Below are positions 6,088-24,694 of a stretch of DNA of 24,700 nt, one piece after another. This DNA is from a virus, in IMG/VR virus record IMGVR_UViG_3300007539_000202, positions 1-24,700 of that record; one strand, 5' to 3'. The notes below the pieces were generated by a model. The model was not told the origin of the DNA and searched no databases. It saw only the letters and a list, made by a program, of their open reading frames with translations. The position numbers and the translations under genes were made by a program. The first letter of the stretch is position 1, and the number at the start of each line of letters is the position of its first letter.

Positions 6088-6104
6088 TAATATTTTATTT
6101 CTAG

Positions 6105-6115: not shown

Positions 6116-6120
6116 GAAAA

Positions 6121-6477
6121 ATGGGGTTGCTAGATTCTATTATATTTAAAGATAAGAAGTTCTCCGATTTACTAGAGGAAATCTATGATCTTCAACAACA
6201 AAAAAATACCCAAGTAACGGCTTTAATACAAGAGTTAAAACCCTTAGTACAAGAAATAGGGGATGCTACCTTAATAGTTCCACTAATTAAAGAATATTTA
6301 GAGATAAGTATTAAAAATAATGAACAACTAGTCAAGATGGCTGGTATAGTACAAAGAACTTTACAATCTAGTACATCAGGGGACGAATTTGGTTTATCTG
6401 ATGAAGAAAAAGAACAATTACTAAATGGTTTAGAGGGTACTATAAAAGAACTAACTCAGGGAAATGGCAAGGAGTAG
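6121..6477 (+). CDS. hypothetical helical protein at the head of the baseplate operon, 118 aa
   Basis: The acidic, all-helical protein begins MGLLDSIIFKDKKFSDLLEE and has long amphipathic helices (IYDLQQQKNTQVTALIQEL; LIVPLIKEYLEISIKNNEQL), with a Gly/Asn-rich end. I do not recognise a family name. I recall similar proteins (starting M-x-LLD, with LIKEYLEI) just before spike-type genes of marine T4-like phages. It overlaps the spike gene by 14 bases, so a baseplate hub, assembly or chaperone role is plausible. It follows a late-type box directly, with no Shine-Dalgarno sequence. Confidence 0.65.
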   Translation: MGLLDSIIFKDKKFSDLLEEIYDLQQQKNTQVTALIQELKPLVQEIGDATLIVPLIKEYLEISIKNNEQLVKMAGIVQRTLQSSTSGDEFGLSDEEKEQLLNGLEGTIKELTQGNGKE

Positions 6478-7714
6478 AACAGGATTATCATATTTAAAAC
6501 CAAATACTACTACTACCCAATCACCAGTAGGTATATTTCCAGCTAGGGTAGAATTTGTTTTACTGGATAATGAAACGGATAAAACTAAATTTAAAAATCT
6601 AGGAGAATGGTCAGGTATTGGTTCAATTCTATTTTCCAGAATAAAAGAAAATAATAGAGGTCTTAATAATAAAACCGTAGCTAAACCTTTATTTTCAAAT
6701 CTTAAGAATTACCCCCTGATTAATGAATTAGTTTATATTATAGCTTTACCAAATGCTGATATTCAAATAGACCCAAATGATGTAAGTTTTTACTATTTTC
6801 AATCTGTCAACGTATGGAATAGTAGTCATCATAATGCCATACCTAATGCTCTATCTGATCTTTCTATTCCTGAATCCCAAACAATGGATTATCTTCAAGT
6901 AGAAGGAGGCACAGTAAGAAGAGTTACTGATGAAGGTACAGAAATAAATTTAGGTAATACATTCATAGAAAGACTTAGTGTAAAAAACACTCAAGCTTTT
7001 GAAGGGGATATAATACATGAAGGTAGGTGGGGTCAATCCTTAAGATTTGGTTCTACTGTTACTGATTCTAATATATTTAACCCATGGTCCATAGCAGGTA
7101 CGAATGGGGATCCTATTACTATTCTAAGGAATAATCAACATGATGATGGTAAAGATCCATGGATACCCCAGGTTGAAGATATTAATAAAGATGAAAGTAG
7201 CATTTATTTAACTTCTACCCAAAAAATCCCAATTGATGTTGCATCTAATAGATATAAATCATATGATAGTGGATTAGAACCTCAAGACCCTAAAACATAT
7301 TCTAATTCTCAAATTATATTAAATGCTGGTAGATTATTATTTAATGCTTATGACGATAGTATTTTATTAGCTTCTAATGATTCTATTAACTTAAATACCC
7401 AGGAATCAGTAAATATAGATGCTGTAGAGGGTCTATCTGTTTCCGTAGGAAATCAATCAGAAATATTATTAGGAAGTAATGATTTTTCAGTTATAGAACC
7501 TGTAATATTAGGTGATAAATTTTTAGCGGATATAGAAAACCTTGCTAATATACTAATATCACTTGGAAATAATTTTGAACTTAATCCTATGTTAACTTCA
7601 GAAGAAACAGCCAATGCAGATTTATTAACTATAGGGGGAGATATAAGAGATGCGGCACAGACTATATTAAATAATATAGAAAATTATAAATCTAAAGTAA
7701 CCTTTTCTAAATAA
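6464..7714 (+). CDS. gp5/gpV-like baseplate central spike protein
   Basis: Residues about 22-130 look like the OB-fold of phage spike proteins: GIFPARVEFVLLD, then KPLFSNLKNYPLINELVYII followed by ALP, and SFYYFQSVNVWNSSHHNAIP. Residues 170-222 include AFEGDIIHEGRWGQSLRFGS and DPITILRN, a beta-rich segment I recall from marine T4-like virion proteins. Residues 283-345 consist of short alternating strands (SQIILNAGRLLFNAYDDSIL, LLASNDSINLNTQESVNIDA), the pattern of the triple-stranded beta-helix spike in gp5 and gpV. The C-terminus is helical. The protein would trimerise as the membrane-piercing tip under the tail tube. I see no lysozyme domain, unlike T4 gp5. It overlaps its neighbours on both sides (14 bases; TAATG) and stands upstream of gp25 and gp6 as V stands before W and J in P2. 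The assignment rests on pattern and order. Confidence 0.6.
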   Translation: MARSRTGLSYLKPNTTTTQSPVGIFPARVEFVLLDNETDKTKFKNLGEWSGIGSILFSRIKENNRGLNNKTVAKPLFSNLKNYPLINELVYIIALPNADIQIDPNDVSFYYFQSVNVWNSSHHNAIPNALSDLSIPESQTMDYLQVEGGTVRRVTDEGTEINLGNTFIERLSVKNTQAFEGDIIHEGRWGQSLRFGSTVTDSNIFNPWSIAGTNGDPITILRNNQHDDGKDPWIPQVEDINKDESSIYLTSTQKIPIDVASNRYKSYDSGLEPQDPKTYSNSQIILNAGRLLFNAYDDSILLASNDSINLNTQESVNIDAVEGLSVSVGNQSEILLGSNDFSVIEPVILGDKFLADIENLANILISLGNNFELNPMLTSEETANADLLTIGGDIRDAAQTILNNIENYKSKVTFSK

Positions 7715-10308
7715 TGAGTTTTAAATCTCTTACAGCCAGACTTCTTAAATTAGCTAGGGATCAGGTATTTAAGCTTGATGATATAGCTATTAGACAAGGT
7801 ATTCAATGGGCAGATAATACTTTAGATGTTTTTGAAAGAAAAATCGAATCCAAAATAGGATTTGATATTCCAATACCATGGACATTAGAAGGACTATTTG
7901 CTAGTAAATTAATAGCTTTAAGTAATAAAGCTCAAGAAAAATTAGTTGAACGGTCTAAAGTTAAAGAAGATGAAAGGGAAGAACGAAAAGCCGAACGTAA
8001 TGAGTTAGAAACTTCCCGTAGTAGTAGACATACTCAGGCTTTAGCTGATATTAAAGCGGAATATAGAGCCGAACTCAAAAGAATAGATGAATTAACTAAT
8101 AGATCTACTTTTAGTACTATTATAAGATTTTTACCCCCACCTGATGTAACTACTATAGTAATATTGGGTCAACCCCGAACTGTAATAGAAGATATCAAAC
8201 CTTATACTAAAGAATTTGATGGTGATTTAAAAGATGCTATTGTAAACGGAGATTATAGAGAATTAATAGCTCAAGGTGCTGATCGCATTGATATAACTGC
8301 AATTGATGCAGGTTTTTTTTCTTTGGGACAGGGAAAAACAAAAAGAACTATAGTTGGTGATGATGGTGTTATAGATCCTGGAGATTATGGTTTTGAATTA
8401 GTAGAAGTTAAAGAAAATAAAAAAGGTTTAGATCGTGTCATATCCTTTGAAGAAGAAACAAGATTACGTAGAGCTGCTTTATATAAATATCAAGCTGGTT
8501 TAAGAGAAGAAAATAAAATATATGCCGCGGAAAGAGAACAATTTAGAAAAGAGGATAGACAAAAGAAAGAAGATGAAAGGAAACAAAAAAGAGAAAATAG
8601 AGGAAAAAGGGATAGAGAAAAAAGAGAAAAATTAACCCCCGAAGAAAGAGAACAAAGAAGGCAAGATAGAAAGGATGCAAGAAATACAGAAAGAGATGAT
8701 AGAAAGGATAGAAGAGATGATAATAAAGAGGAAAGAAAGGAAAAAAGAGATAATAAAAAGAAAGATAGGGATCAAAGAAAAAATGATAATAAACAAAGAA
8801 GAGATGATAATGAACGAAGAAGAAAAAATAATCGTAAATTATTAGATGATGCTAGAGAAGCTAGAGATCTTGAAGAAGCAGAATTTGATAGAGATCTAGA
8901 ACAAGCTATAGAAGAATTAGATTTTAGAGTTGAAATAGGTCAAATTACAGAAGCCCAGAAAAGAGAAATTTTAAGGGATATTAGAGAAGAAGAAAAAGTA
9001 GATGTAAATAACGCTAGGGATAAAATTAGAGAAGTTAAAGCGGGCAATAGACAATCCAATAAAGCTTTTAGAAATCAGAAAAAAGAACAAAAAAATAGAG
9101 GAGCTAGAAAAGATCGTGATCCCTTATTTGATACTTCTATGCTAAAAGATCCCGCATTTGTAAGATCCGTTTATGAACAAACTTATCAATTTTTACCTCA
9201 ACAAGATAAAGATGCATTAGCTATAACCTTAGCTGAATATCAAACTGTTCTTAATAAAACTGTTAAATCCCTAAGCATTATTCAGAGTTCTATTATTTCA
9301 GTACAAGGGATTTTGAACATTTTAAGTAAAACAGGGACAACATTAGGTGTAGTAAGTGATTCTGTAGAAACAGCTACTAGACTTATTACTACCTTAGCTA
9401 TACCTACGGGGGCACCTATAGGAGTAGGATTACCTTTAAATATTATAACTCAATTAGCCCAAACTTTAGATCAATTAATAACCCAATCTGAAAAAGTAAA
9501 TGGAGCTTCAGATTTAATAGCTGATGCAACTCCTCCTATAGCTCAAAAATTAGAGGGTACTCTACAAGTTGTAAATACTCTTTTAGATGTAATTACTATA
9601 ATATTTGATTTAGTAATCTTTATAAATTATATAGCACAATCGGGAGCAACTTCTTTAGAAGAAATTAGAAATGGATTAAGTCAAGAATTAAATAATGCAC
9701 TGGCACAATCAGGTGACTCAAGCAACATAGGACAAAATGTAAGTGAGGAAGAAGACTTATTGGCAAGATTAGCTCCTAATTCTAATGATCCATTATTTTA
9801 TAAAGGTTTTAGACTTACTTTACAATATGTAACTAATGATGGAGAACTTACCCAAACTAGAGTTTTAGGTGTAAATGAAACTAATGGGGTATCATTAGCT
9901 ACAGAACTTTCATTTACTAATTCCCCTGAGGTATTAGTTCAGGAAATGCAGTTCCAAATAGATAATTATAATTTGATTTTTGTAAATGATCCTAATATTT
10001 CTATTGAAGATCAGCTAGATACAATAGATTTAGAAAATTTAGAAGGATTCCAAACTATTATTCCTTCTACTGATATAGAAGATATAGAAGTTGATTTGCC
10101 AGGTTTACCCCCACGTTTTACTGCTAAACAAATTAGACAATTAAAACGTAAGGATAGAAGAAGTGATAGAAAAGAAAGAAGAGAAGCTAGACAAGCTGGA
10201 GAAATAACTAGAAGAGAAGCTCGTAAAGATAGAAAACAAGATAGAAAAGAAAGAAAACAACAATCTAAAAATAGAAGAAGAAATAGAATACGTAAAAAAG
10301 AAAGATAA
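7714..10308 (+). CDS. large basic coiled-coil structural protein beside the spike
   Basis: I do not recognise a family for this 864-residue protein. Residues 1-130 are helical, with a Lys/Glu-rich stretch. Residues 271-375 are an extreme run of Arg, Lys, Glu, Asp, Asn and Gln with almost no hydrophobic residues (for example RKEDRQKKEDERKQKRENRG), expected to be one long charged helix. Residues 513-590 and 618-643 are hydrophobic (LLDVITIIFDLVIFINYIAQ). Residues 690-790 look beta-rich, and residues 804-864 are again almost purely Arg/Lys/Glu/Asp. Length, long helices and hydrophobic patches would suit a tape-measure-like or tube-interior protein, but its position between spike and gp25 differs from the classic tape-measure site. 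It starts in a TAATG overlap with the spike gene. Confidence 0.7.
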   Translation: MSFKSLTARLLKLARDQVFKLDDIAIRQGIQWADNTLDVFERKIESKIGFDIPIPWTLEGLFASKLIALSNKAQEKLVERSKVKEDEREERKAERNELETSRSSRHTQALADIKAEYRAELKRIDELTNRSTFSTIIRFLPPPDVTTIVILGQPRTVIEDIKPYTKEFDGDLKDAIVNGDYRELIAQGADRIDITAIDAGFFSLGQGKTKRTIVGDDGVIDPGDYGFELVEVKENKKGLDRVISFEEETRLRRAALYKYQAGLREENKIYAAEREQFRKEDRQKKEDERKQKRENRGKRDREKREKLTPEEREQRRQDRKDARNTERDDRKDRRDDNKEERKEKRDNKKKDRDQRKNDNKQRRDDNERRRKNNRKLLDDAREARDLEEAEFDRDLEQAIEELDFRVEIGQITEAQKREILRDIREEEKVDVNNARDKIREVKAGNRQSNKAFRNQKKEQKNRGARKDRDPLFDTSMLKDPAFVRSVYEQTYQFLPQQDKDALAITLAEYQTVLNKTVKSLSIIQSSIISVQGILNILSKTGTTLGVVSDSVETATRLITTLAIPTGAPIGVGLPLNIITQLAQTLDQLITQSEKVNGASDLIADATPPIAQKLEGTLQVVNTLLDVITIIFDLVIFINYIAQSGATSLEEIRNGLSQELNNALAQSGDSSNIGQNVSEEEDLLARLAPNSNDPLFYKGFRLTLQYVTNDGELTQTRVLGVNETNGVSLATELSFTNSPEVLVQEMQFQIDNYNLIFVNDPNISIEDQLDTIDLENLEGFQTIIPSTDIEDIEVDLPGLPPRFTAKQIRQLKRKDRRSDRKERREARQAGEITRREARKDRKQDRKERKQQSKNRRRNRIRKKER
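8521..8850 (+). other. purine-rich strand tract encoding the charged helix
   Basis: For about 330 bases the + strand is made mostly of A and G (AGAAAAGAGGATAGACAAAA and similar), as a by-product of AGA, AAA, GAA, GAT and AAT codons. The final part of the same gene (10120-10300) shows a second, shorter tract. Within each tract many short imperfect repeats of AGAGATAA/AGAAAAGA type occur. Confidence 0.7.
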
Positions 10309-10326
10309 TAATTTTTAATATTGTAG

Positions 10327-10335
10327 TATTTATAA
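10327..10335 (+). promoter_or_regulatory. late promoter box TATTTATAA before the gp25-gp6 genes
   Basis: AGTATTTATAAC lies in the 38-base gap after the basic coiled-coil gene. The nine-base core ends 11 bases before the ATG at 10347. A leader of about five bases is predicted if transcription begins six bases after the box. Confidence 0.5.
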
Positions 10336-10346
10336 CAAATAATAAG

Positions 10347-10670
10347 ATGAAAGTAGAAAAACTAAAAGAAATAATTAAAGAAGCTACTAGAGAGGTTATA
10401 CATGAGGAGTTGAAAGAGATTTTATTAGAAGCTGTAAAGGGTAGATCTTCAACCCCCATTACAGAAAATAGAATCACGGCACAACCATCCGAAGGAGTAA
10501 AAAATAATTTAAGAAGTTCATACTTAGATATTTTAGGAGAAACAGCTCAAACTATGACTACTAATAACCTCCAGGGAACTTTTAGACCTCAACCAGGTAT
10601 AGATTCTGCTAATGGTACTTTACCCCCGGGGCAAGTATCTTTAGAACAAATTGGATCTTTTATAAAATAG
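10347..10670 (+). CDS. hypothetical protein, 107 aa, helical N-terminus
   Basis: The first 33 residues form an amphipathic, strongly charged helix (MKVEKLKEIIKEATREVIHE, then ELKEILLEAV). The rest is Pro/Gly/Ser/Thr-rich and probably extended, ending LPPGQVSLEQIGSFIK. I do not recognise the family. Small proteins opening with a K/E-rich I-I-K-E helix are frequent in marine T4-like phages in my recollection. It is the first gene after a late-type box and stands three bases before gp25, so a role in baseplate wedge assembly is plausible. No Shine-Dalgarno sequence precedes it. Confidence 0.65.
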   Translation: MKVEKLKEIIKEATREVIHEELKEILLEAVKGRSSTPITENRITAQPSEGVKNNLRSSYLDILGETAQTMTTNNLQGTFRPQPGIDSANGTLPPGQVSLEQIGSFIK

Positions 10671-10673
10671 AAT

Positions 10674-11078
10674 ATGGCTACTATAGTTCCAAAACAATCA
10701 CCCCTTGATATAAGCCAAAGGACAGGAATAGGATTTAGTTTTCCTATTAATGGTCCTGCTGTCTTTAATACTACTTACCAAACTAGGGATCAAATAAAGG
10801 CTAATTTACTTAATTATTTATTAACTAATCAAGGTGAAAGAGTATTTAATCCTGATTTTGGGGCAGATCTTAGAATTTTATTATTTGATTTTAACGGAGA
10901 TGCACAGCAAGGATTAAGAGATATTTTACAATCTAAAATTTCAGAATTATTTCCTACTGTTAAAATACAACAATACCAATTAAAAAGAGATGAGGATATT
11001 AATACTATCCAATTATCTATAGTTTATTCAATTCAGGATTTTGGAATATCGGATTCAATAGACATTAATTTAACATAA
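10674..11078 (+). CDS. gp25: baseplate wedge protein gp25 (gpW/gp25 family)
   Basis: At 134 residues the protein has nearly the length of T4 gp25 (132 aa). Family features are the N-terminal DISQRTGIGFSFPI segment (12-25), the helix IKANLLNYLLTNQGERVFNP (41-60) with the diagnostic GERVFNPDFGADLR (54-67), and the C-terminal strand-rich part ending DSIDINLT. gp25 joins the inner baseplate to the tail sheath and helps initiate sheath assembly, together with gp6 and gp53 in T4. Despite the family's historic lysozyme-like name no enzymatic role is implied. The stop overlaps the gp6 start (TAATG), and the pair corresponds to W-J of phage P2. Confidence 0.92.
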   Translation: MATIVPKQSPLDISQRTGIGFSFPINGPAVFNTTYQTRDQIKANLLNYLLTNQGERVFNPDFGADLRILLFDFNGDAQQGLRDILQSKISELFPTVKIQQYQLKRDEDINTIQLSIVYSIQDFGISDSIDINLT

Positions 11079-12943
11079 TGGCAGAATTAAAAAGAGACAT
11101 AAGATATATAAATAAAGATTTTAATAGTTTAAGAAATAGACTAATAGAGTATACTAAAACCTATTTCCCCAACACTTTTAATGATTTTTCTCCCTCTTCT
11201 ACGGGAATGTTATTTATGGAAATGGCAGCGTATGTAGGGGATGTATTATCTTTTTACATAGACAACCAAATTCAAGAAACTTATATTCAAAGAGCTAGAC
11301 AAACTAGTAATATCTTTAATTTAGCATATCTTTTAGGATATAGACCTAAGGTAACTACTGCTGCATCTGTGGATATAGATTTTTTCCAACAACTTCCTGC
11401 TAAAACAGTAAATGGAGTTAGAGTACCAGATTTTGATTATGCTTTAAATATACCAGCAAATACTGTTGTATCAAGTTTTATAGATTCGAATATAGAATTT
11501 ATTATAGAAGATAGTATTGATTTTACTGTTTCTTCCTCTTTAGATCCTACTGAAATTACTGTGTATCAAGTTTCTAATACCCAACCAGAATTTTTTCTAT
11601 TAAAGAAAACACGAAAAGCTATATCTTCTACTATTAATACTGTTAATTTTAGTTTTTCCTCTCCTGAAAAATTTGCTACTAGAACTATTAATAATAATAA
11701 TATTATAGGGATATTAGATATATTTGATAGTGATGGAAATGAATATTTTGAAGTTCCAAATTTAGCACAAGAATCAGTTTTTGATTCTATAAAAAATACC
11801 AACCCTAATGATCCTAATGTTTCTGCGGATAATACTACAAGCCATTTATTAAAATTAAAAAAAGTCCAAAGAAGATTTACTACTAGATTTTTAGATAGAG
11901 AAAACTTGCAAATAGAATTTGGAGCAGGTACTACAGCAGATAATGATGAAGAAATAGTTCCTAATCCTAATAATGTAGGTTTAGGATTACCTTTTCAACA
12001 AGATAAACTAACCACTGCATTTTCTCCTACTAATTTTGTATTCTCAGATACTTATGGGATAGCACCTTCTAATACTACATTAACAGTAAGATATTTAACA
12101 GGTGGAGGGGTAGGTGCTAATACTCCTGCTAATACCTTAACTAATTTAAATAAAGATGGAATAGTATTTAGAACTCCCACTTCTTTAAGTAATGTAGCTT
12201 TAGCTAATAATATTTTTAATTCATTAGCTACTAATAATAGATTAGCTGCCGATGGTGGATCAGATGGAGATACTATAGAAGAGGTAAGACAAAATGCTCT
12301 AGGTAATTTCCAAAACCAATTAAGAACTGTTACACCCCAAGATTATTTAATTAGAGCTCTTTCTATGCCTCCTAATTTTGGAACTATATCTAAAGCATAT
12401 GCCATACCAACTCAGATATCAAATCTTAACCCTGGGGAAACACCAACAGTATTAGATTTATATGTTTTATCCCAAGATAGCAATGGTCATTTAACTAATG
12501 CTTCTCTTGGTTTAAAAAAGAATCTAAGAACATACTTATCCGAATATAGAATGGCAGGAGATTCAGTTAGAATAAAAAATGCATTTATTATTAACATAGC
12601 GGTGGAATTTGATGTTGTTGCGAGACCTAATTTTAATAATGATCAAGTCTTAACTAATTGTGCAAGTTCTTTAAGATCATTTTTTAATCGGGATAATTTT
12701 GAAATAAATGAACCTATTTTAATTACTGATGTAAATACTTTACTATCTAATGTTAGTGGGGTCCAAACAGTTAAAAACATACGAATAACCAATGAATCAG
12801 GTGGAGATAGAGGTTATAGTGATTATTCCTATGACATAGAAGGAGCTACTATAGATCAAGTAGTTTACCCATCTTTAGATCCAATGATTTTTGAAGTGAA
12901 ATATCCTAATCAAGATATTAGAGGAAGAGTAGTACCATTATAA
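11078..12943 (+). CDS. gp6: baseplate wedge protein gp6 (gpJ family)
   Basis: The 621-residue protein (T4 gp6 is 660 aa) belongs to the gp6/gpJ baseplate family. The N-terminal segment DIRYINKDFNSLRNRLIEYT and the following TGMLFMEMAAYVGDVLSFYI (about 43-62) with RARQTSNIFNLAYLLGYRPK are typical. The GDTIEEVRQNALGNFQNQLR segment and RTVTPQDYLIRALSMP (about 404-432) form the conserved central gpJ motif, and the C-terminal third has the alternating strands and helices of the gp6 dimerisation region. gp6 dimers form the continuous inner ring that drives the baseplate shape change at infection. It is coupled to gp25 by TAATG and followed after 13 bases by the next gene. All expected parts are present; I see no truncation. 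Confidence 0.92.
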   Translation: MAELKRDIRYINKDFNSLRNRLIEYTKTYFPNTFNDFSPSSTGMLFMEMAAYVGDVLSFYIDNQIQETYIQRARQTSNIFNLAYLLGYRPKVTTAASVDIDFFQQLPAKTVNGVRVPDFDYALNIPANTVVSSFIDSNIEFIIEDSIDFTVSSSLDPTEITVYQVSNTQPEFFLLKKTRKAISSTINTVNFSFSSPEKFATRTINNNNIIGILDIFDSDGNEYFEVPNLAQESVFDSIKNTNPNDPNVSADNTTSHLLKLKKVQRRFTTRFLDRENLQIEFGAGTTADNDEEIVPNPNNVGLGLPFQQDKLTTAFSPTNFVFSDTYGIAPSNTTLTVRYLTGGGVGANTPANTLTNLNKDGIVFRTPTSLSNVALANNIFNSLATNNRLAADGGSDGDTIEEVRQNALGNFQNQLRTVTPQDYLIRALSMPPNFGTISKAYAIPTQISNLNPGETPTVLDLYVLSQDSNGHLTNASLGLKKNLRTYLSEYRMAGDSVRIKNAFIINIAVEFDVVARPNFNNDQVLTNCASSLRSFFNRDNFEINEPILITDVNTLLSNVSGVQTVKNIRITNESGGDRGYSDYSYDIEGATIDQVVYPSLDPMIFEVKYPNQDIRGRVVPL

Positions 12944-12956
12944 AATAATTATAACC

Positions 12957-13400
12957 ATGCCTATACCAGATACAGTACAATTAAGAACCTATATTCCCAT
13001 TTCTAATTATGATTCATCCCAATTACCTCAACCGGAACCTAATACAGGAAATTTTTTAGAAAATAGTTTCGATAAAACTAATTTAGATTTAGAAAATAGT
13101 GCTCCTGCTGGGGGTCCTATTAATGATCCAAATTCTAATTTTGTACATTATTATACACCTTCTAGACCTTATGTGGATACACCTCAAGGTGCAACTAGAG
13201 GAGAGGGAGCTTTACAAACCACCCCAGGGCAAACTAATCTGGATGTGGAAAATCCATTTCCTAATGGGGGGCCTATTAATGTACCCTATACTACTAGGAT
13301 AGGTAGTCAATTTGCTGGTTTCACCACTACTCACCCCCATACTCCACTAAATACCTATGCTGATTCATTTAACCCAATCCCCCCTGGAATATTAATATAA
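12957..13400 (+). CDS. Pro/Asn-rich protein with an internal duplication, 147 aa
   Basis: This low-complexity protein is rich in Pro, Asn, Thr and Gly with few helices predicted. It contains two copies of one unit: TNLDLENSAPAGGPINDP at 41-58 and TNLDVENPFPNGGPINVP at 93-110, 52 residues apart. The sequences between and after the repeats are also related in style (Tyr/Pro-rich: YTPSRPYVDTPQG). I recognise no family. Its place between gp6 and a DNRLRE-like protein, and the extended composition, suggest a peripheral linker in the baseplate or fibre network. Reading another frame in this stretch gives a hydrophobic 67-residue shadow at 13099-13302, which I do not accept. Confidence 0.7.
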   Translation: MPIPDTVQLRTYIPISNYDSSQLPQPEPNTGNFLENSFDKTNLDLENSAPAGGPINDPNSNFVHYYTPSRPYVDTPQGATRGEGALQTTPGQTNLDVENPFPNGGPINVPYTTRIGSQFAGFTTTHPHTPLNTYADSFNPIPPGILI

Positions 13401-13404
13401 TATT

Positions 13405-14556
13405 ATGGCTATTTATAAATTATTTCCTACTAAAGATGCTACTTTATATTCGGGATTTCCTAATATGAATACCGGGTTAGATTCTATAATTGAGACCACT
13501 ACAGATTTCTTTAGTACTAGAACGCAAGCAGAATCTGGAGAAATAGGGCCTAACCCTGAAGCTTCTAGATTTTTAGTACAATTTGATCTTAACGAAATTA
13601 ATAATGTAATTAATAATATAGCTAATGGAGTATCAACCACATCTTTTTTAAAAGTATATTCAGCTAATGCCAGGGGATTAACATCAGATACTACACTTTT
13701 AGTTAATGCTGTGGGTCAAAATTGGAATATGGGGTCAGGGATTTATCTTGCTGATCCTACAGTTAGAAATGGATGTAGTTGGAATGCAAGACTATCTGAA
13801 GGTAATGGGACTTGGGATACAGATAACCCTACCTCGGGGATAACAGGCTCCTATTCAGGTTCAGATAATCAAGGAGGAGGAGCATGGTACACAGCAAGTG
13901 CTATAACCCCACAAAACTCTCAATCTTTTGATTATTATAGCAGTCTTGATTTAAATGTGGATGTAACCCAAATTGTTAATAACTGGGGTTCTTCTTTATT
14001 TACTAATTATGGGTTTATAGTAAGACAAGAGGAATCCCAAGAATTTATTGATGATGTTAATTCTCGAACGGAATTAAAATTCTTTTCTAGAGATACTAAT
14101 ACAATTTATCCACCTCAACTAGAAATTAAATGGCATGATGCAATATGGAGTACAGGTTCTTCTACTAATGTTGAATTAACTACTAATGAAGCATTAATAT
14201 CTATACCAAATAATAAAAATGAATACTACCCAGAAGAAATAGCCAAATTTAGAATAAATGCTATAGAAAAATACCCAGTTAGAACATATTTAACTGCATC
14301 ATCTTATACTAATAACTTTTTCTTACCTTCTGCTTCTTCTTTATATGCCATTAAAGATAGTAAAACAAATGAGTACGTAATAGATTTTGATTCTCAATTT
14401 ACTAAAATAGGTGCAGATGAAGAATCTTCATTTTTTAAGGTTTATATGAATGGGTTGGAACCTGAAAGATATTATACTGTTTTAGTTCAAACTACTATAG
14501 ATGGTGAAACTAAAATATTTGATCAAGATTTAAATTTTAAAGTAATAGAAGGATGA
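13405..14556 (+). CDS. DNRLRE/CBM96-like beta-sandwich virion protein
   Basis: The N-terminal part (about 1-250) resembles the DNRLRE/CBM96 type of beta-sandwich: PTKDATLYSGFPNMNTGLDS at 8-27, RFLVQFDLNEIN at 55-66, a WNARLSEGNGTWDT stretch, and VDVTQIVNNWGSSLFTNYGF followed by IVRQEES. The conserved order (Asp-Ala-Thr at the start, N-x-G loop, FDL strand, W-rich centre, V-T-x-I-V-N-x-W) is what I rely on. Residues 256-383 look like one or two immunoglobulin-like domains (EEIAKFRINAIEKYPVRTYL; RYYTVLVQTTIDGETKIFDQ). Such domains bind carbohydrate or serve as spacers in surface proteins; here a baseplate-periphery or fibre role is inferred from position. Its stop overlaps the next start (ATGA). 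A TATTTATAA box at 13410-13418 is made by its own codons 3-5. Confidence 0.65.
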   Translation: MAIYKLFPTKDATLYSGFPNMNTGLDSIIETTTDFFSTRTQAESGEIGPNPEASRFLVQFDLNEINNVINNIANGVSTTSFLKVYSANARGLTSDTTLLVNAVGQNWNMGSGIYLADPTVRNGCSWNARLSEGNGTWDTDNPTSGITGSYSGSDNQGGGAWYTASAITPQNSQSFDYYSSLDLNVDVTQIVNNWGSSLFTNYGFIVRQEESQEFIDDVNSRTELKFFSRDTNTIYPPQLEIKWHDAIWSTGSSTNVELTTNEALISIPNNKNEYYPEEIAKFRINAIEKYPVRTYLTASSYTNNFFLPSASSLYAIKDSKTNEYVIDFDSQFTKIGADEESSFFKVYMNGLEPERYYTVLVQTTIDGETKIFDQDLNFKVIEG

Positions 14557-15038
14557 GTCAACAAAATGTAGGATTTACTAGACAAGTTTTTAATAAACAA
14601 CAATTCAATCAAACTGTTGATACTGAATTTTCTCAATTGGTAAGTGTCCCTGATGAAACTTTTTTTGATATAAATTTGGCTAATGTAGAAGATTTTTTTA
14701 CGTTGTACCAAAATTTCTTTTTAGATATACCAAAATTGGGAGATGTTAATTCACATGAATTTATTATTAAACAATCTACAGAATATGTAGGGTTTGAAGA
14801 ACAAAATGAAACTATACAAGCTTTACTTGATGAAATAACTGAGTTAAGAGAACAAAATTTGGAAATTAGAAGACAAAATTTAGATTTAGTACAACAGTTT
14901 TCTACTGGGGTGATAACAACAGATAGACAAGAATTAGCTACGGGGGCTAGTATAGCAGGAGTTAGGTCTACTTCCGCCATATCAAGTGGAGGAAATTTAA
15001 CTACTGGAGGAAGTAGTACTGGATATAGTGGGGGTTAA
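14553..15038 (+). CDS. coiled-coil baseplate-region protein, 161 aa
   Basis: The N-terminal half (residues 1-70) contains Phe-rich segments (ETFFDINLANVEDFFTLYQN, FFLDIPKLGD). Residues about 78-118 form a coiled coil (ETIQALLDEITELREQNLEI, RRQNLDLVQQF). Residues 136-161 are Gly/Ser/Thr-rich and flexible. I recognise no family, though its size and the pattern of globular head, coiled coil and flexible tail would suit a small adaptor between the wedge and a fibre. It overlaps the preceding gene by four bases (ATGA) and is followed after 16 bases by the giant gene. The AGAAGG immediately before its ATG is too close to serve as a Shine-Dalgarno site. Confidence 0.65.
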   Translation: MSQQNVGFTRQVFNKQQFNQTVDTEFSQLVSVPDETFFDINLANVEDFFTLYQNFFLDIPKLGDVNSHEFIIKQSTEYVGFEEQNETIQALLDEITELREQNLEIRRQNLDLVQQFSTGVITTDRQELATGASIAGVRSTSAISSGGNLTTGGSSTGYSGG

Positions 15039-15054
15039 TATTAAATAAATTATA

Positions 15055-18000
15055 ATGGGAGCTATTTTATATACCGAAGGAGGATTATTACAACGTCTTG
15101 ATGGTAGGCCATATATAGGAAGTTATCACATAATGCCAGATGGTACCCCTATGGCTGGGGCAACACATACTGGTAATGATGAAATCCTACAATATGATCC
15201 TAGTAGGGCTCGTGTTTCAGAAGTTAATCCTGCTAATTTTACAGCTCAGGGGTTTGGTTTAGCGGACCAAACTGTTATCGCTAGTTCGGAAATAGAATCA
15301 TTTTTCGACCCCCTAGTAGATAGGATAGAGTTTTTTATTTATGATATTTCTAAAACTTTAGTTTTATTTGATGATGATTTTAGGGAGTATAGAATAGAAA
15401 ATAATATAAGTACTGACCCTAATGAAATAGATGAAATTATTCTTCAACCCCAAGTTGATGCAGTTAGAAATGGATTTGATAGGGGATCTCTATTTACAGT
15501 TTATAATTTTATTACTTCCGAAATAAGTGATGTTTTTATATCCGAAATATCACCTGATAGAACAGAAATTAGATTACAATCTAATGTTCTAACTAGTGAA
15601 GATATAAGAGAAGAGGTTTCTTCATTAAAAAGTAAAATAGATGGTCTAAATTACTTTGATGAACTCTATCTTAATTTTGGAAATAATGATTATTTTATAG
15701 CTGTAAACATACAGTTAGATAACACTACATCTCCTACTTCATTCTTAGTAAAACTATATACCCCTCTTCGTGATGATATTACTACTAAAACAGAAGTAGA
15801 ATTAGTAAGTAAGGTAGCCGAAACTCAAGCGTTTGAAGTTGATTTCCCTGACATAACAATACCAATAGATAATAGTATTAGGATTAAGGGACCTAATACA
15901 AATTTAAAAATTAAAGATAGGGTAAATAATTCTTCGGAATATAAAAATTTAACTTCTTTAACAACTTCTTCTTTCACTGCTTCTCTAGATCAAGCTAGTT
16001 ATTTACTTAATCAAACTGGAGTACCTCTCCACCCTAGCTATTCTATAGTTGATTATAGTGATTTTGTTCACTTTTCTTCTGCTAAAAAAAGATTAGAAAA
16101 TTTTTACTACAAAGTAGGCCAAATAGAATCTAATCAAAATTCTATAAATAATTTAAGACTTATTACTGGATCATCTTCTGGTTCTTCTACTACTCTTACT
16201 TCTCTTAAAATATTTGAAGATAGAATAACAGAAACTATTAGAAATTTTGATGGGTTTGAATATTTCTTATACTATAATAGTAGTTCAGATGCTTATCCTA
16301 AATTAAATGATAGTGCTCCTTATAGATTACAATCTACAGGTAGTGCTGAGGTATTAACTTGGTTAGGTAGTGATATAGTAGGTAGTGCTAATTATGGAGG
16401 AGCTTTATTAAATGCCTCTAGATTTGATGAAGATAACCCAAGTAACTTAAAATATACTATTCCTGAATTTATAAGAGAAAATTCTAGTAATAATAATTAC
16501 TTAGAATTTGTAAATTTAGTAGGACAACATTTTGATGAATTATGGTTATACATTAAAGCTATAACGGATAAACTTAAAGCATCAAATAATTTAGAAACTG
16601 GAGTACCCCCCGAATTAGTTGAGGAAACACTTAAATCTTTTGGGTATGATGTTTATGGTAATAATTTTGATAACAATGATATTTTTACCAGTTTAATAGG
16701 TATAAATGAATCCGGATCGTATTTTACTGAAACTAATCAAGAATTAATTACTACCGCTATATCGGCAAGTAATACACCTATTCCTATAAATGATGTAAGT
16801 AAAGAAATCTATAAAAGATTATATCATAATCTGGTTTATTTAGCTAAGAAAAAAGGTACAGTCTCAGGTTTAAGAAGTTTAATTAATATTTGGGGTTTAC
16901 CAGATACTGTATTAAGAATAAATGAATTTGGGGGTAAAGATAAAGTAAATGTTAATGATTGGGACTTATATAGAAGAATATATAATAAAGAATTAATATC
17001 TACAGGAAGTGGAAACCAATTTACTACATTTTTTGCAAATAAAGGAACACCCGACACTGGACTTAATTCTGATTGGGGGGTAGATCCTAATGTCCCTAGA
17101 ACAGTTGAATTTAGATTCAAATCAAGAATTAATCCAAACACTCTCCCTAACTGTACAGGTTTTATAAACACACCAATAAGAGAAGAATTATTTAGATTAT
17201 CAGATACTGATGTTGTAGGCTCTACAGCCTCCTCATCCGTAGCAATTACACTAGAGTATTTTGGATCAGGATCAGTAACAGGCTCATTTTCGGGTAGTAC
17301 CTTTGACCCTAATAATCAATATGCGGATCTAACATTATATATAAGTGGTTCAACACAATACTATTCATCATCTATTAATCTACCATTCTACAATCAGGAT
17401 TGGTGGAACGTAATGCTACAATATGATAGTGGTTCTAATAAATTTAACCTTAATACTGGGGATAAAATTTACAATGGTAATGATGGAACTCAATTAGGTT
17501 TTACTGGAAGCACATCTATAACAGTTCCCGCGTATGTAGATACATTAGGATATCGTAATGCTAATAACGCCATCTCCGGTAATGGGGGAACAAACCAACA
17601 TTTCGGCATCGGAAAGAGCGGATCTCTAAAATTCTCAGGATCATTTCAAGAACATAGATACTGGACAAACCTTTTATCGGAAGAAGCATTTCATAATCAT
17701 ATTATGGATCCTTTATCGATTGAGACAGGATATTTAACAGGATCCCTCTCACCCGCAGAAACTCTTGCATTTAGAACTAGAGAAGGAGAAGATTGGTCAA
17801 TAACGGGTTCTCTTACAAATCCTGAATATCAATCTATTCACCCAAAAGTAATAGGATCCTTTACCCCAACCTCATCTTTTACTTCTAGAGGTAATGATAC
17901 AAACCTATATAATGTAAATGGGTTATATCAAGCAAATAGGGAAACTCAATTCTTAAACCAACCTAATTTAGGTATTAAAAATAGAGTGAATGATAAAATA

Positions 18001-21000
18001 CGTGTTGTTGATAATGTAGTTTATGAAAGTACTTTATCATCACTTAGATCAATTCAACAAAATTATGAGGTTTCTCAATCATTTACAGAAGATAATAATT
18101 TATTAGAAGTTGCATTTTCACCCCAGGATGAAATAAATGATGATATCATCCACGAATTAGGGTTTAATAATAACATTACTGAACAATTAGCTGACCCACG
18201 AAACTTATCTTCATCTCTGGAATATTACGACGGGTTAAGAGATATAGCTCTAAGATACTTTGAAAAGTATGTCAAAGATAATGCTAATGATTACTATAGA
18301 TTAATTAAATATATAGATAATTCTTTATTTAAAGCTATTAAAAACTATGTACCTGCCAGAACTTCGGTTTCTACCGGTATAGTAGTTAAACAACACTTAT
18401 TAGAAAGAAATAGAGTAAGACCTCCTCAAGTTAACATAAATACTACTATAGCTAAAACCCCTGAAACAGGTTCAGCTGTAAATGGAATATCACCAACAGG
18501 TAATAATAGCCAATTATCTTTTCAGGATATATCACTAGAGGGATCTATCAAATCTCAACCAAGAGGATTTATAACAGGTTCTCCTATTCAAGTGTTTACA
18601 GGGGGAACTGGTGGTTCATTTGAGAAATTTAATTCCATTCATTTCCACCCTTATGGTACTTCTGGTAGTGGTCCTACTGAAAGATTTGGTTTTGATATTT
18701 CTCAATCCTTTATAGAAACTGTTTCTACTCTATCAGGTAGTGTAAATACTTTAATAAGTAACCAAGATGAATTTTATAATGGGGAATTTGAGGGGGCTCA
18801 TATTATAATAACAACCCAATCACTAAATCCACATTGTAAACAGTTTTTGAATATTAACTTACAACAGGGAGTATTAGAACATGAATATGATAGATTTGTT
18901 TATACGAACAATACTTGTTCATTAGCTAAATTTAATGATGTAAAAACAGCACCTAGAAGTGGAGAAATATTTTTATTTAGAAATTCTAGCAATTTAAATA
19001 ATATAGAAAAAATAAAAATTTCTCATACTACTAAAGGTGGAGTGGATCTATCCAATATATTACCTACAGTAGATAGATTTACATTTGATTTTGATGGTAA
19101 TAATAAAGTAGTTAATGTAGACTTTGATTATGGGGGTGGATCTTATACTACGTTTAATGTAACATCACCTTTATTTACTTATGATTCTACTAACTTTAGT
19201 TCTAACTTTGTTTCATATCCTTTTACAGGATCAAAAACAGGAAGTCATGAAACTATTACAGTTAATTGGGATGGGAGCAAATTAGTAAGAGGAGGTTTCC
19301 CACAAGCTGCCATTGGGTATAATACCCAGGAAATTATAGTTTCTGACTATCAAGTAGAAAGTGATAGTCATAATTTATTTGATAATAGTTCCGGTATATA
19401 TACATGCCCCTTAACTAATAATAAATTCTTATCAGTTACTAGTTCTCTTAGCAACTTTACTATTAATTGGACTAATAATGTATCATATTCTATTGATACA
19501 GATGTACAATTTAGAGTTAAAAATCTTTCCACAGGTGAGGAATTAGATTCTTTAGGGGGTTTTCAATTAACAATTAACCAAACCTCCAGTGTAGGGCAAG
19601 CATATTCGGGTACAGAACAAAGAGCCCTTCTTACCCCTTCTCAAGCAATAAGAAGTGGGGATCAAGTAGCATTAGTAGCACGATTAAATACAGCCTTTAC
19701 TCCATTCCAAGCAATAATACCTGGACAATCTGCTGCAGCAAATATTACAGCATCTTTTTCATTTAGTAATGCCTCATTTGCTATAAGTGAATCTATAGTA
19801 ACCGATAATGATCCAATTTCTACTATAACAGCTATCGAACCCGGATATTTAACAAACAATACGGATTTTGAAAGAGCTTTTGATTGTCAACCTTTATTAA
19901 ATAATTCAATAGAAAATAGGAACTCTACAACATATCAAGATGTAGATTACTCAACGGGTTTACTAACTCCTACTAATGTAATTTTTATAACTAATAATAA
20001 TGCTGTTCCTTCACAAACCCCTGATTCTAATTATACACAACAGTCTAGAATTTTACCTAGATACGAGGGTTCAAGGTTACAAGCCCTAAATATTAATACT
20101 TATACTGGACCAGGTGTTTTACTTAAGGATGGCACAACATGGGGAGGTGACATATCATTTGGAAAAACTCCAGTTATACAAAGAGTAAAACCATTTTTCA
20201 GTTATTTCCAATTATTAGTACCTACTTCACCTGAACTAGAAAATGCCACACAGGTTAAACTAGCATATTTAATAGATTCTGAGGGTAATGCTTTCAAACC
20301 CCTTTTAAATTCACCTACTTTTTTCAATGTTGAAGGAACGTTTGAAAGTGGTGATAGGGTAGATATAGCATTAGAGGATACTTTACAAACAGATGATCAA
20401 TCCTTAGTAAATGCCGCAGTAGGAATTAACTTGGATAACTTTAACACCTCAGCTAATGTTCTATATGGGGCTAGAAGAGTAGATCCTATTTTAACTACAC
20501 AAAAAGTATCCATTAATGATGTATCTAATGTTAATGATGCTTTTGTATCTTCTTTAACTTTTGAAGGAATAGGAGGAGAACCTACTAATTATGGGTTATT
20601 CGCTAATGGTAGTCAAACAGTTACTCTTTCTAATAGTAGTAATGTTGTAGGAGGTACAGGAGTAACTTTTTTCCCTCCTACGGTAGATGGCGCAGGAGGA
20701 TTTGATACTAACACTGGCATTTATACTTTCCCTAGCAATCCTATTAGCAGTAATAAGATTAAATTTGGTTGTATTATTTCATGTTATATAAGATCTATAT
20801 ATAACCTTAATCCAAGTTATTATAGTTATTATAGCCAATTTAATATAGCTAAACTCCAACTTATACGAGAGAGAGCATCTGTAGAAACAATATTAGGTGA
20901 AGAAACAATAAAATATTCTGTAACTAATAATGGTACTGAGTTGTTACAGTTTAAAGGATTTGAATCTAGCTTTATTGAATGTAGATCTACTGATAAAATC

Positions 21001-21567
21001 TTTATGAGAATTTTAATTCTTAATCCTGCATTTGAGGTGGAATTAAGAGGTCAGGCTATTAGTGGTACACCTTTATTATTTCCTGAAATTACAATACAAA
21101 ATAAATTTTTTGAAACGGGTAGTAATTTTACACCTATCTTAACAGCTTCGGTTTCTATGTCACAATTCTTTGACATTAGCCAACAACTACCTATACCTGG
21201 TAGTACTTTTAAACCTATTAATGAAAACTTTTCATTTAAAGTTGGGGATGAATTAAGATTTGAAGGTAGTGAAAATTTAGTACATAAAATATATGATGTC
21301 AATCTAGAAACAGAAGGAGATGCTTCGGGTAGTTATATCTTAAATGTGCATCCTGAGGTACCTTCAAATGTAAACATAAATCAATTTTTATTAAGAAGAT
21401 ATAATTCTGATGGAACTTCAGTATTAATAGATTTAGTTCCTCCTTCTGCATCATTTGCCACTACTAAAGGGGTTATGAAAAATACTTTAATATCAGAAGA
21501 ATTAGGGAAAAATATAGATCTTATAGTTTCAGATCTAGTCAAAGAAGGAGTTTTAAATAATAAATAG
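15055..21567 (+). CDS. giant composite baseplate protein with gpI/gp7-like core and lectin-like modules
   Basis: This single frame encodes 2170 residues. Residues 1-60 are a Gly-rich N-terminus. Residues about 475-625 have the pattern of the P2 gpI/T4 gp7 wedge core: a helix VGQHFDELWLYIKAITDKL, then YKRLYHNLVYLAKKKGTVSG with the KGT motif at 600-602, and LRSLINIWGLPDTVLRINEF. Residues about 680-885 are a LamG-like jelly roll (PRTVEFRFKSRINPN; WWNVMLQYDSGSNKFNLNTG; FSGSFQEHRYWTNLL). Residues 960-1125 are helical and end in NYVPARTSVSTGIVVKQHLL followed by ERN, a segment I recall from marine phage virion proteins. The C-terminal 1000 residues are Ser/Asn/Thr-rich beta sequence with two C1q-like stretches (FDNSSGIYTCP near 1441; FDTNTGIYTFP near 1884). 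In T4, gp7 (1032 aa) is the outer wedge scaffold; this version is twice that size. A wedge protein that also carries receptor-binding modules is my inference. Confidence 0.7.
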   Translation: MGAILYTEGGLLQRLDGRPYIGSYHIMPDGTPMAGATHTGNDEILQYDPSRARVSEVNPANFTAQGFGLADQTVIASSEIESFFDPLVDRIEFFIYDISKTLVLFDDDFREYRIENNISTDPNEIDEIILQPQVDAVRNGFDRGSLFTVYNFITSEISDVFISEISPDRTEIRLQSNVLTSEDIREEVSSLKSKIDGLNYFDELYLNFGNNDYFIAVNIQLDNTTSPTSFLVKLYTPLRDDITTKTEVELVSKVAETQAFEVDFPDITIPIDNSIRIKGPNTNLKIKDRVNNSSEYKNLTSLTTSSFTASLDQASYLLNQTGVPLHPSYSIVDYSDFVHFSSAKKRLENFYYKVGQIESNQNSINNLRLITGSSSGSSTTLTSLKIFEDRITETIRNFDGFEYFLYYNSSSDAYPKLNDSAPYRLQSTGSAEVLTWLGSDIVGSANYGGALLNASRFDEDNPSNLKYTIPEFIRENSSNNNYLEFVNLVGQHFDELWLYIKAITDKLKASNNLETGVPPELVEETLKSFGYDVYGNNFDNNDIFTSLIGINESGSYFTETNQELITTAISASNTPIPINDVSKEIYKRLYHNLVYLAKKKGTVSGLRSLINIWGLPDTVLRINEFGGKDKVNVNDWDLYRRIYNKELISTGSGNQFTTFFANKGTPDTGLNSDWGVDPNVPRTVEFRFKSRINPNTLPNCTGFINTPIREELFRLSDTDVVGSTASSSVAITLEYFGSGSVTGSFSGSTFDPNNQYADLTLYISGSTQYYSSSINLPFYNQDWWNVMLQYDSGSNKFNLNTGDKIYNGNDGTQLGFTGSTSITVPAYVDTLGYRNANNAISGNGGTNQHFGIGKSGSLKFSGSFQEHRYWTNLLSEEAFHNHIMDPLSIETGYLTGSLSPAETLAFRTREGEDWSITGSLTNPEYQSIHPKVIGSFTPTSSFTSRGNDTNLYNVNGLYQANRETQFLNQPNLGIKNRVNDKIRVVDNVVYESTLSSLRSIQQNYEVSQSFTEDNNLLEVAFSPQDEINDDIIHELGFNNNITEQLADPRNLSSSLEYYDGLRDIALRYFEKYVKDNANDYYRLIKYIDNSLFKAIKNYVPARTSVSTGIVVKQHLLERNRVRPPQVNINTTIAKTPETGSAVNGISPTGNNSQLSFQDISLEGSIKSQPRGFITGSPIQVFTGGTGGSFEKFNSIHFHPYGTSGSGPTERFGFDISQSFIETVSTLSGSVNTLISNQDEFYNGEFEGAHIIITTQSLNPHCKQFLNINLQQGVLEHEYDRFVYTNNTCSLAKFNDVKTAPRSGEIFLFRNSSNLNNIEKIKISHTTKGGVDLSNILPTVDRFTFDFDGNNKVVNVDFDYGGGSYTTFNVTSPLFTYDSTNFSSNFVSYPFTGSKTGSHETITVNWDGSKLVRGGFPQAAIGYNTQEIIVSDYQVESDSHNLFDNSSGIYTCPLTNNKFLSVTSSLSNFTINWTNNVSYSIDTDVQFRVKNLSTGEELDSLGGFQLTINQTSSVGQAYSGTEQRALLTPSQAIRSGDQVALVARLNTAFTPFQAIIPGQSAAANITASFSFSNASFAISESIVTDNDPISTITAIEPGYLTNNTDFERAFDCQPLLNNSIENRNSTTYQDVDYSTGLLTPTNVIFITNNNAVPSQTPDSNYTQQSRILPRYEGSRLQALNINTYTGPGVLLKDGTTWGGDISFGKTPVIQRVKPFFSYFQLLVPTSPELENATQVKLAYLIDSEGNAFKPLLNSPTFFNVEGTFESGDRVDIALEDTLQTDDQSLVNAAVGINLDNFNTSANVLYGARRVDPILTTQKVSINDVSNVNDAFVSSLTFEGIGGEPTNYGLFANGSQTVTLSNSSNVVGGTGVTFFPPTVDGAGGFDTNTGIYTFPSNPISSNKIKFGCIISCYIRSIYNLNPSYYSYYSQFNIAKLQLIRERASVETILGEETIKYSVTNNGTELLQFKGFESSFIECRSTDKIFMRILILNPAFEVELRGQAISGTPLLFPEITIQNKFFETGSNFTPILTASVSMSQFFDISQQLPIPGSTFKPINENFSFKVGDELRFEGSENLVHKIYDVNLETEGDASGSYILNVHPEVPSNVNINQFLLRRYNSDGTSVLIDLVPPSASFATTKGVMKNTLISEELGKNIDLIVSDLVKEGVLNNK
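17221..17880 (+). other. compositionally distinct LamG-like segment inside the giant gene
   Basis: A hand count gives 244 G+C in 660 bases (37%), against 26% in six flanking 60-base rows (16501, 16561, 16801, 16861, 18061, 18901). Codon choice shifts too, with CCC, GCC, TCC, GGC and CGG appearing. The segment coincides with most of the LamG-like domain (residues about 723-942), with no frame disruption, consistent with acquisition by recombination. Confidence 0.6.
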
Positions 21568-23309: not shown

Positions 23310-24272
23310 ATGAGTTCCTTCAAACAATTCAATGCAAAGGATGTTGTAATATCACCCTTTAAAGTCAATAAAAGTTTTACTTTTAGGGGAACCTCTGAAT
23401 TTACAAAATCTAATGTAGGAATAGATAGATTTATAGGTAAAAATTCTGCACCTACTAATAATATACTGCAAGAAGCCACAACAGGTCAGATATCATTAGT
23501 TCCAGAAAGATTATTATATAAATCAATTGAACAGCTTTATTATTCTAATTTTTTATTAGATGCCTCAGGTAGTAATGCTACAACTGCTTCTTTTAATCCT
23601 GATTTAACTATAACAGGGCCAGGAGCTACTACTAATTATTATAATTATTTATCTTCTGATTTAGTACCTAGAAGAGAATTTCCCACTCAATCCGATGCTA
23701 GAATAGGAGTAATATCAATACCTTCTAAAGTATTTGGAGAGTATATCAAACCTGGTACTTTTCGATATGAAGAGGATAGCACTATAATGACCGATGACGG
23801 AGAGGGGAATTTGTTTGATCAAGATGGAAATCAATTAGGTAATATTATATATGAACATGGATTAGCTATTGTTACAGTAGAAAGTGAAGATGCATATGAT
23901 TCTTTATATGGTGTAGCAGTTTATGGAACAGATTTATATGGTGAATCACCAGGATTTGATGCTTTTATGACGGGATCTAATGTCACGTGTTCCTTTGAAA
24001 GTACCTTAACGTTAAATGAAGCACAATACGCTGCTAGGATAACAGAAAATGAATATCAATTTTCCCTTAATCCTACTATTATAAAAGGTAATGATGTAAA
24101 TTCTGATACTTATTATGATTTTGCCACTGGTTCTTATTTCACTCCTTATATTACTACCGTAGGAATGTATAATAACAAATATGATTTATTAGCAGTTGCT
24201 AAACTTGCTAAACCTCTCCCCGTATCCCAATTTACGGATACAACAATAATGGTTAACTTAGATATGTTTTAA
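23310..24272 (+). CDS. virion-type protein, second of a tandem paralogous pair, 320 aa
   Basis: The opening (MSSFKQFNAKDVVISPFKVN) and ending (YITTVGMYNNKYDLLAVAKL near 280-299, then AKPLPVSQFTDTTIMVNLDM) parallel the upstream gene, while the middle has diverged. The middle contains an acidic loop ETGEGN-type turn (DSTIMTDDGEGNLFDQDGNQ) and repeated SLYGVAVYGTDLYGES sequence of beta-hairpin character. It is presumably assembled into the same structure as its paralogue. The ATG is preceded by TAAGGTGA, the most Shine-Dalgarno-like stretch at any start in the window, though it sits too close to the ATG to be ideal. Its stop overlaps the nuclease gene by one base (TAATG). Confidence 0.7.
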   Translation: MSSFKQFNAKDVVISPFKVNKSFTFRGTSEFTKSNVGIDRFIGKNSAPTNNILQEATTGQISLVPERLLYKSIEQLYYSNFLLDASGSNATTASFNPDLTITGPGATTNYYNYLSSDLVPRREFPTQSDARIGVISIPSKVFGEYIKPGTFRYEEDSTIMTDDGEGNLFDQDGNQLGNIIYEHGLAIVTVESEDAYDSLYGVAVYGTDLYGESPGFDAFMTGSNVTCSFESTLTLNEAQYAARITENEYQFSLNPTIIKGNDVNSDTYYDFATGSYFTPYITTVGMYNNKYDLLAVAKLAKPLPVSQFTDTTIMVNLDMF

Positions 24273-24694
24273 TGAATTGGACTTATGAAGGGAATGAAAT
24301 AATAGATATTTCACAATTTCCCGAAAATACATTTGGTTTTATTTATGAGGTAACCCATGTACCTACAGGTAAAAAGTATATTGGCAAAAAACAGTTATTT
24401 TTTAATAAAAAACTACCTCCACTTAAGGGATATAAAAGATGGAGAAAAGTAGTAAAAGAGGGTAATTGGAAAACCTATTTTGGCTCCCATGATTATATAA
24501 AAGGGCTAATTAAAGAAAATAAACAAGAAGAATTTAAACGTGAAATTATACAAATTTGCTATAGTAAAAAGGAACTTACATATAGTGAAACAAAATTTCA
24601 AATGATGTTTGAAGTCCTAGAAAATCCTTCGTATATTAATAGCAACATACTGGGGAAATTCTTTAGATCCGATCTAGAGAATTATAAAGACTAA
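24272..24694 (+). CDS. GIY-YIG-type nuclease
   Basis: The 140-residue protein has a GIY-YIG signature in slightly altered form: GFIYEV (22-27) and KKYIGKK (34-40), separated by 9 residues. Then come the basic segment GYKRWRKV (53-60), NWKTYFGSHDYIK, an Arg/Lys helix FKREIIQICYSKKEL, and YSETKFQMMFEVLE with E106 in the place of the catalytic glutamate. These nucleases cut DNA through a metal-bound active site; in T4-like phages several are free-standing homing endonucleases of the Seg type, and related small ones sit near terminase genes. Here the gene starts in a TAATG overlap with a virion gene, unusual for a recent invader. An ATG at 24696 opens what may be the next gene, cut off by the window edge. 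Confidence 0.75.
   Translation: MNWTYEGNEIIDISQFPENTFGFIYEVTHVPTGKKYIGKKQLFFNKKLPPLKGYKRWRKVVKEGNWKTYFGSHDYIKGLIKENKQEEFKREIIQICYSKKELTYSETKFQMMFEVLENPSYINSNILGKFFRSDLENYKD

Follow-up and report, generated by a model that had tools for sequence, protein, structure and literature searches.

A putative baseplate wedge subunit with LamG-like and C1q-like exchangeable cassettes in a family of mostly uncultured aquatic phages

The wedge subunits of contractile tails are seen as their conserved and invariant part, host range being assigned to separate fibres. Whether a wedge chain may itself bear recognition-type domains is the question raised by IMG/VR virus record IMGVR_UViG_3300007539_000202 (31% GC), the whole of which (24.7 kb) was analysed as the window, and in which one plus-strand gene (15055–21567) encodes a composite baseplate wedge-like protein of 2170 amino acids (aa). 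The initial annotation had read this gene as a gpI/gp7-like wedge core fused to lectin-like and C1q-like modules; its observation is confirmed here and its interpretation partly supported. Direct support was obtained for an intact gene, its context in a baseplate cluster, a LamG fold, the similarity of a KGT-containing segment to known wedge proteins, LamG-free relatives, split-gene versions and the exchange of cassettes, the last three of which had been missed. The best explanation of the whole, and in our judgement a reasonably probable one, is a wedge subunit consisting of a scaffold with attached, swappable surface-binding domains.

The gene is an uninterrupted frame from ATG to stop, and many stops occur throughout the opposite strand. 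The same open frame, at full or partial length, is present in 25 IMG/VR loci, and the core profile was confirmed in at least 599 IMG/VR contig stretches, so the 2170-aa gene is no assembly artefact. Many relatives carry equivalent content as two or three genes, as would be expected if adjacent genes had been joined by read-through or mis-assembly, but at least 28 complete fused relatives on independent contigs and purifying selection across the gene leave this reading with practically no probability, and it was rejected on the number of intact fused homologues. Complete family proteins are 1124 to 3032 aa long (L189 excluded); in L189 the wedge gene (4804–10853) is split into two overlapping frames inside the LamG part. 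The C-terminal half is fused in 28 of 66 complete genes, encoded by one or two separate downstream genes in 24, and was not found in 14 within the sequence stretch available for each. Each variable cassette is a gene of its own in the three-gene version, exemplified by L149 (1188 + 336 + 469 aa).

The nearest relatives among isolates are Flavobacterium phage immuto and Microcystis phage Mel-JY01, to which LR756508, an uncultured 484-kb phage, is added. The gp109/gp108 pair of immuto represents a split version, homologous to the scaffold and to part of the C-terminal half. Immuto gp108 (L027, 17749–18960), homologous to residues 1610–1679 of the window protein, has been deposited as a ‘putative nucleic acid binding protein’, a name which is probably wrong, as this homology in a split version points to a baseplate protein. 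The gene cluster recurs, with a wedge frame of 2172 aa, on a contig of a Winogradskyella metagenome-assembled genome (L241), a weak pointer to the host; this homologue and the closest isolates make a Bacteroidota host plausible.

The conserved scaffold surrounds a LamG insert. An N-terminal beta/helical region (residues 51–440; 15205–16374) occurs in every relative reaching it, LamG-free ones included, and is followed by a conserved helical, gpI-like core (residues 441–640; 16375–16974), which resumes after the insert (residues 941–1135; 17875–18459) and ends in ...VPAR.... These two core parts are the most conserved of the N-terminal half, with median pairwise identities of 0.58 and 0.56 (0.41 for LamG), and the most constrained, the ratio of nonsynonymous to synonymous substitution rates (dN/dS) being 0.04–0.13. 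Nothing in the family is as invariant as the KR...KGT helix-turn-helix-strand segment (residues 584–627; 16804–16935), with the pattern KR...KGT...GLP..LRINEFGG, where R588, K600, G601, G614, P616 and L620 are 100% conserved in about 104 sequences, and where KKKGT (residues 598–602) and GLPDTVLRINEF (residues 614–625) lie exactly as annotated initially. The model places helices at residues 578–591, 593–598 and 603–612 and a strand at 621–625.

It is at this segment that known wedge proteins are recognised. When compared by hhalign with a profile of 14 diverse phage gpI proteins, the core profile scored 28.4 (P 0.0015), with KGT placed exactly on KGT; none of 300 column shuffles reached this score (maximum 25.9), the reversed profile scored 14.9, and ten other modules of the protein as well as ten other window genes all remained at or below 18.0. 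A second profile, comprising an ackermannvirus wedge subunit and three cyanophage gp7-position proteins, matched the core at the same KGT with a score of 26.4, reached by none of 150 shuffles, and the gpI profile aligns to this second profile at KGT too (P 0.013). The solved wedge subunit of R2 pyocin, PA0619, reads KRNAVATSFVLHQRKGT, including KR...KGT, and the 2170-aa protein reads KRLYHNLVYLAKKKGT. The post-LamG part containing VPAR was also forced onto the gpI C-terminal helix; this alignment lacks statistical support, is a visual hint at most, and was set aside.

The genomic context is that of a baseplate cluster. Upstream, a gp25-like baseplate wedge/sheath-initiator protein (10674–11078, plus strand; PF04965 above cut-off) is followed by a gp6/gpJ-like baseplate wedge protein (11078–12943, plus strand; matching PHROG baseplate wedge, with Baseplate_J slightly under cut-off), which shares 46% identity with the annotated baseplate wedge protein of immuto. 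Within contig reach and with few exceptions, the family maintains the order gp25-gp6-(147)-383-161-WEDGE-226-339-320-nadS. In the window, gp6 and the wedge gene are separated by three genes (147, 383 and 161 aa; 12957–15038), of which those of 383 and 161 aa are retained in most of the family and matched no wedge profile.

Of the added domains, LamG is the more securely identified. The inserted region (residues 641–940; 16975–17874) contains a predicted LamG/ConA-like all-beta jelly roll at about residues 681–885 (17095–17709), with nine strands within 683–870, in an AlphaFold2 model built from 69 sequences. Its top Foldseek matches in the PDB are single-domain neurexin LNS, agrin, pentraxin and CBM40 (probability 1.00; target-normalised template modelling score, TMt, 0.43–0.58), and the Pfam laminin G model did not match the region. 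The LamG domain claimed initially is thus borne out at the level of predicted fold, and the model and the flanking core modules place it inside the conserved scaffold region. It is absent from immuto gp109 and from an environmental relative, L021/L022, where 4 and 28 residues separate the core modules; the scaffold can therefore do without LamG.

In the C-terminal half, conserved modules are interleaved with variable cassettes: a linker module (residues 1166–1300; 18550–18954), at which the first gene of split versions ends, cassette 1 (residues 1301–1585; 18955–19809), a conserved module containing the gene 2/gene 3 boundary of the three-gene version (residues 1586–1790; 19810–20424), cassette 2 (residues 1871–2012; 20665–21090), and a C-terminal module with a helix at its end (residues 2013–2170; 21091–21564), all on the plus strand. 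The AlphaFold2 model of this half, built from 17 sequences, is beta-rich, cassette 2 being better modelled (predicted local distance difference test, pLDDT, about 73–91 across most of it). The Foldseek matches included C1q, CD40L, APRIL and TRAIL (probability 1.00, TMt 0.50–0.58, for a model of mean pLDDT 63 and with no aligned ranges) and also a cyanophage short-fibre binding domain, and no Pfam C1q/TNF model matched the C-terminal half. The C1q-like modules of the initial annotation therefore stand as fold matches, not as family assignments, and C1q/TNF-like folds are predicted less securely here than LamG. The motif FDxx[ST]GIYTxP, which had been placed near residues 1441 and 1884, was found within one residue of both, once per cassette (FDNSSGIYTCP at 1442 and FDTNTGIYTFP at 1883). 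Its looser form never occurs in shuffled family sequences, and even in that form it is limited to close relatives (7 of 135 family open reading frames), and is thus a property of the cassette type, not of the family.

The principal new finding is that LamG and both variable C-terminal stretches are, by sequence comparison, swapped among related phages independently of the core. The nearest relative, L003, shares 89–98% identity in gp25, gp6 and other flanking genes and 91–96% in the N-terminal part, core and LamG, but just 34–52% in cassette 1 and 47% in cassette 2, whereas L001, L002 and L006 share 66% in the N-terminal part yet 90–92% in cassette 1. LamG shows 53% identity with L004 and L002 against 83–86% for its flanks; in L008, with 32% in the N-terminal part and 48–59% in the core, it reaches 80%; and L212 compared with L157 and L153 shows 75% identity in the N-terminal part and 76–79% in the core but 36–37% in LamG. 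Synonymous sites tell the same story: the LamG region is 95% identical in amino acids to that of L001 with a proportion of synonymous differences (pS) of 0.09, compared with 0.43 and 0.40 in the core flanks (Fisher 1e-11), and cassette 1 deviates likewise against L004 (Fisher 6e-11). The core and LamG trees conflict, as the core data reject the LamG clade (approximately unbiased, AU, test, 3e-66) and the LamG data reject the core clade (6e-81), p-values which are not clean, the clades having been chosen after the identities were seen, though the effect is very large. Among 84 relatives, identities of the core halves correlate at 0.89 with each other and at 0.70–0.72 with LamG. Such exchange is compatible with host-recognition cassettes carried by a wedge subunit, with glycan binding as a putative function.

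The same exchange may be read differently, namely that LamG and the C1q-like domains serve a structural purpose, docking or clamping separate fibres or spikes on the wedge and being swapped to match these fibres instead of the host. The gp7 orthologue XM1 gp17 holds spikes both at its C-terminus and through a loop within the chain (PMC10457771), and fibre-like partners probably exist, since genes 226, 339 and 320 follow in relatives with enough contig and Mel-JY01 encodes g339-family proteins of 955 and 722 aa. These three genes, however, track overall divergence and not LamG or cassette type (95–96% identity with L003, against 34–52% for cassettes 1 and 2), so that docking would need an exchange partner encoded elsewhere, and we consider it unlikely. 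The initial statement that glycan-binding domains lie on the wedge ‘rather than on separate fibres’ was nevertheless too strong, as short fibre-like genes may follow downstream.

Several features of the downstream region were recorded. The g339 profile matches four successive proteins of Mel-JY01 (L028, 18423–25592; 358, 357, 955 and 722 aa by open frame), which suggests that g339 is an anchor domain of fibre-like proteins. Immuto has four genes (L027, 20698–29600; 574, 597, 213 and 1054 aa by open frame) between its g320 homologue and the NAD-synthetase-like gene, three of them annotated as tail fibre or spike; none of the four is found at that place in the window (23310–24694) or in most relatives, and the fibre genes of the window phage could lie elsewhere in its genome. 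The 140-aa gene at 24272–24694 matches PHROG 447 (NAD synthetase) as well as homing endonuclease PHROGs, and its Mel-JY01 counterpart is annotated as GIY-YIG; the name NAD synthetase is doubtful.

A number of results weigh against a wedge subunit with surface-binding domains. The 2170-aa protein and its alignments gave no match in Pfam, PHROG and PDB sequence searches; the gpI match spans only 34–44 columns with an hhalign probability of 8–16%; T4 gp7 showed no detectable similarity by hhalign (P 0.4–0.75); neither gp7 nor another wedge protein appeared in the first 50 PDB fold matches, a list crowded by LamG; both models are moderate (mean pLDDT 65 for the one containing LamG and 63 for the C-terminal half; predicted template modelling score, pTM, 0.37–0.38); gp6 and the 2170-aa gene are separated by two to three genes; exchange amounts to independent inheritance and says nothing of ligand binding; and no virion proteomics of immuto or Mel-JY01 or binding data were found in the literature search. 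A shallow gpI set (effective number of sequences, Neff, 1) gave nothing significant by hhalign, and Tail_P2_I (PF09684) was not matched above its curated cut-off in the window or in 17 viral records. When PF09684 and PF23786 were compared with the relatives, only LR756508 gave a sub-threshold match (Tail_P2_I, 12.7 bits; cut-off 20.6), which lies in the corresponding region and so speaks for the wedge reading, and the IMG/VR relatives gave none. Among BFVD fold matches, a cyanophage ‘baseplate wedge initiator’ was ranked 42 (E 1.8e-3; aligned region not displayed). The missing gp7 match is weak counter-evidence, as gp7, an orthologue of the gpI-like XM1 gp17 (PMC10457771), is likewise not recognised by sequence against gpI (P 0.34).

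That T4 gp7 goes unrecognised and the gpI match is short would also suit a peripheral VrlC/A511-gp106-like or fibre-type baseplate protein with a convergent KGT, the true gpI being another small gene. VrlC has been proposed as a gp7 substitute in pelagi- and cyanomyophages, which also have unidentified structural proteins with ConA and YHYH domains (PMC7029224). Against this, none of the ten other window genes tested matches the gpI or the wedge profile (all ≤18.0), and the KGT segment, the most invariant of the family, aligns independently to two wedge families at the same place; we judge a peripheral protein to be distinctly improbable. The wedge core of the initial annotation is thus retained for its baseplate context and its significant local gpI match, and not for T4 gp7 or Tail_P2_I similarity: the protein quite probably works like a gpI/gp7 wedge subunit, but is assigned neither to PF09684 nor to T4 gp7.

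The wedge-subunit reading may be pictured as follows. In the contractile-tail baseplates of a large group of aquatic, mostly uncultured myophages, the 2170-aa protein would be the third core wedge subunit (gpI/gp7 position, ‘Tri2’-like), present in six copies per baseplate, with its scaffold (approximately residues 51–640 and 941–1135, including the KGT helix-turn-helix as in P2 gpI and R2 pyocin PA0619) packing with two copies of the gp6-like protein in a putative wedge heterotrimer. Binding domains would be situated at two places, LamG in mid-scaffold and two C1q/TNF-like jelly rolls among the C-terminal conserved modules, where they would face and probably touch the cell surface, glycans being the likeliest ligand; contact might be relayed to the wedge and trigger sheath contraction, and cassette swaps among related phages would change recognition while leaving the scaffold alone. 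That the wedge subunit is moreover the main receptor-binding protein, with host range evolving by LamG and C1q-like swaps and receptor contact working straight on the subunit that frees the sheath, with no intervening fibre, appears rather doubtful. A widespread aquatic phage family appears to bear exchangeable recognition-type domains on its wedge chain, so that a baseplate gene, and not separate tail fibres alone, may be where a phage adapts its hold on bacteria. Should binding be confirmed, contact and contraction would be linked through a single protein, host range could be predicted from metagenomic contigs, and several hundred contigs or more that Pfam, PHROGs and the PDB miss would gain an annotation.

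Compared with known systems, the protein shares the KR...KGT helix-turn-helix-strand segment with P2 gpI and PA0619, and its gene, like those of P2 gpI, PA0619 and XM1 gp17, lies downstream of gp25/W and gp6/J. These proteins, however, are only 176–242 aa long and bind separate fibres or spikes, whereas the 2170-aa protein has jelly rolls in its own chain. XM1 gp17 carries its host-binding spikes at an internal loop and the C-terminus, and the extra domains here are likewise both internal and C-terminal, which may be a parallel. T4 gp7 is likewise a large multi-domain wedge protein after gp6 in the baseplate cluster, but directly adjoins gp6, has other extra domains and shows no detectable sequence similarity; at 1032 aa it is half as large, as noted initially. 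Immuto gp109 and gp108 are genuinely homologous to the scaffold and to part of the C-terminal half, but immuto has two genes, no LamG region and separate annotated tail fibre/spike genes downstream.

Carbohydrate-binding folds on a wedge protein and giant gp7-position composites are already known. Gp119 of Bacillus phage Vp4 is a wedge protein with carbohydrate-binding modules (CBMs) that decorates host cells (PMC11406892); it differs in its CBM16-type folds, in being another wedge subunit (BW3) and in belonging to Herelleviridae, and its Deep-Blue homologue lacks CBMs. Pelagi- and cyanomyophages were noted earlier to have structural proteins bearing ConA and YHYH domains (PMC7029224), and it is established that receptor-binding and baseplate proteins of phages shuffle their domains (PMC10684548). 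The rarity implied by the initial comparison with T4 is weakened by the cyanophage gp7-position proteins (5195–6817 aa), giant composite wedge proteins after gp25-gp6, which include P-SSM2 gp7 (5195 aa), ACG-2014d (6817 aa) and S-RIM14 (6198 aa). In P-SSM2 (L239, 1–15588) and ACG-2014d (L240, 1–20454), the segment, KGI in the former and KGT in the latter, matches PF23786 below cut-off, and a YHYH domain is present. ACG-2014d also has two Laminin_G_3 domains (E 2e-17), but homology to these giants was found at the KGT segment only, and the ACG-2014d LamG domains lie far downstream of the core instead of being inserted in it. As far as the literature searched shows, the present family, the LamG insert within its scaffold and the independent exchange of cassettes inside a wedge-type gene are new.

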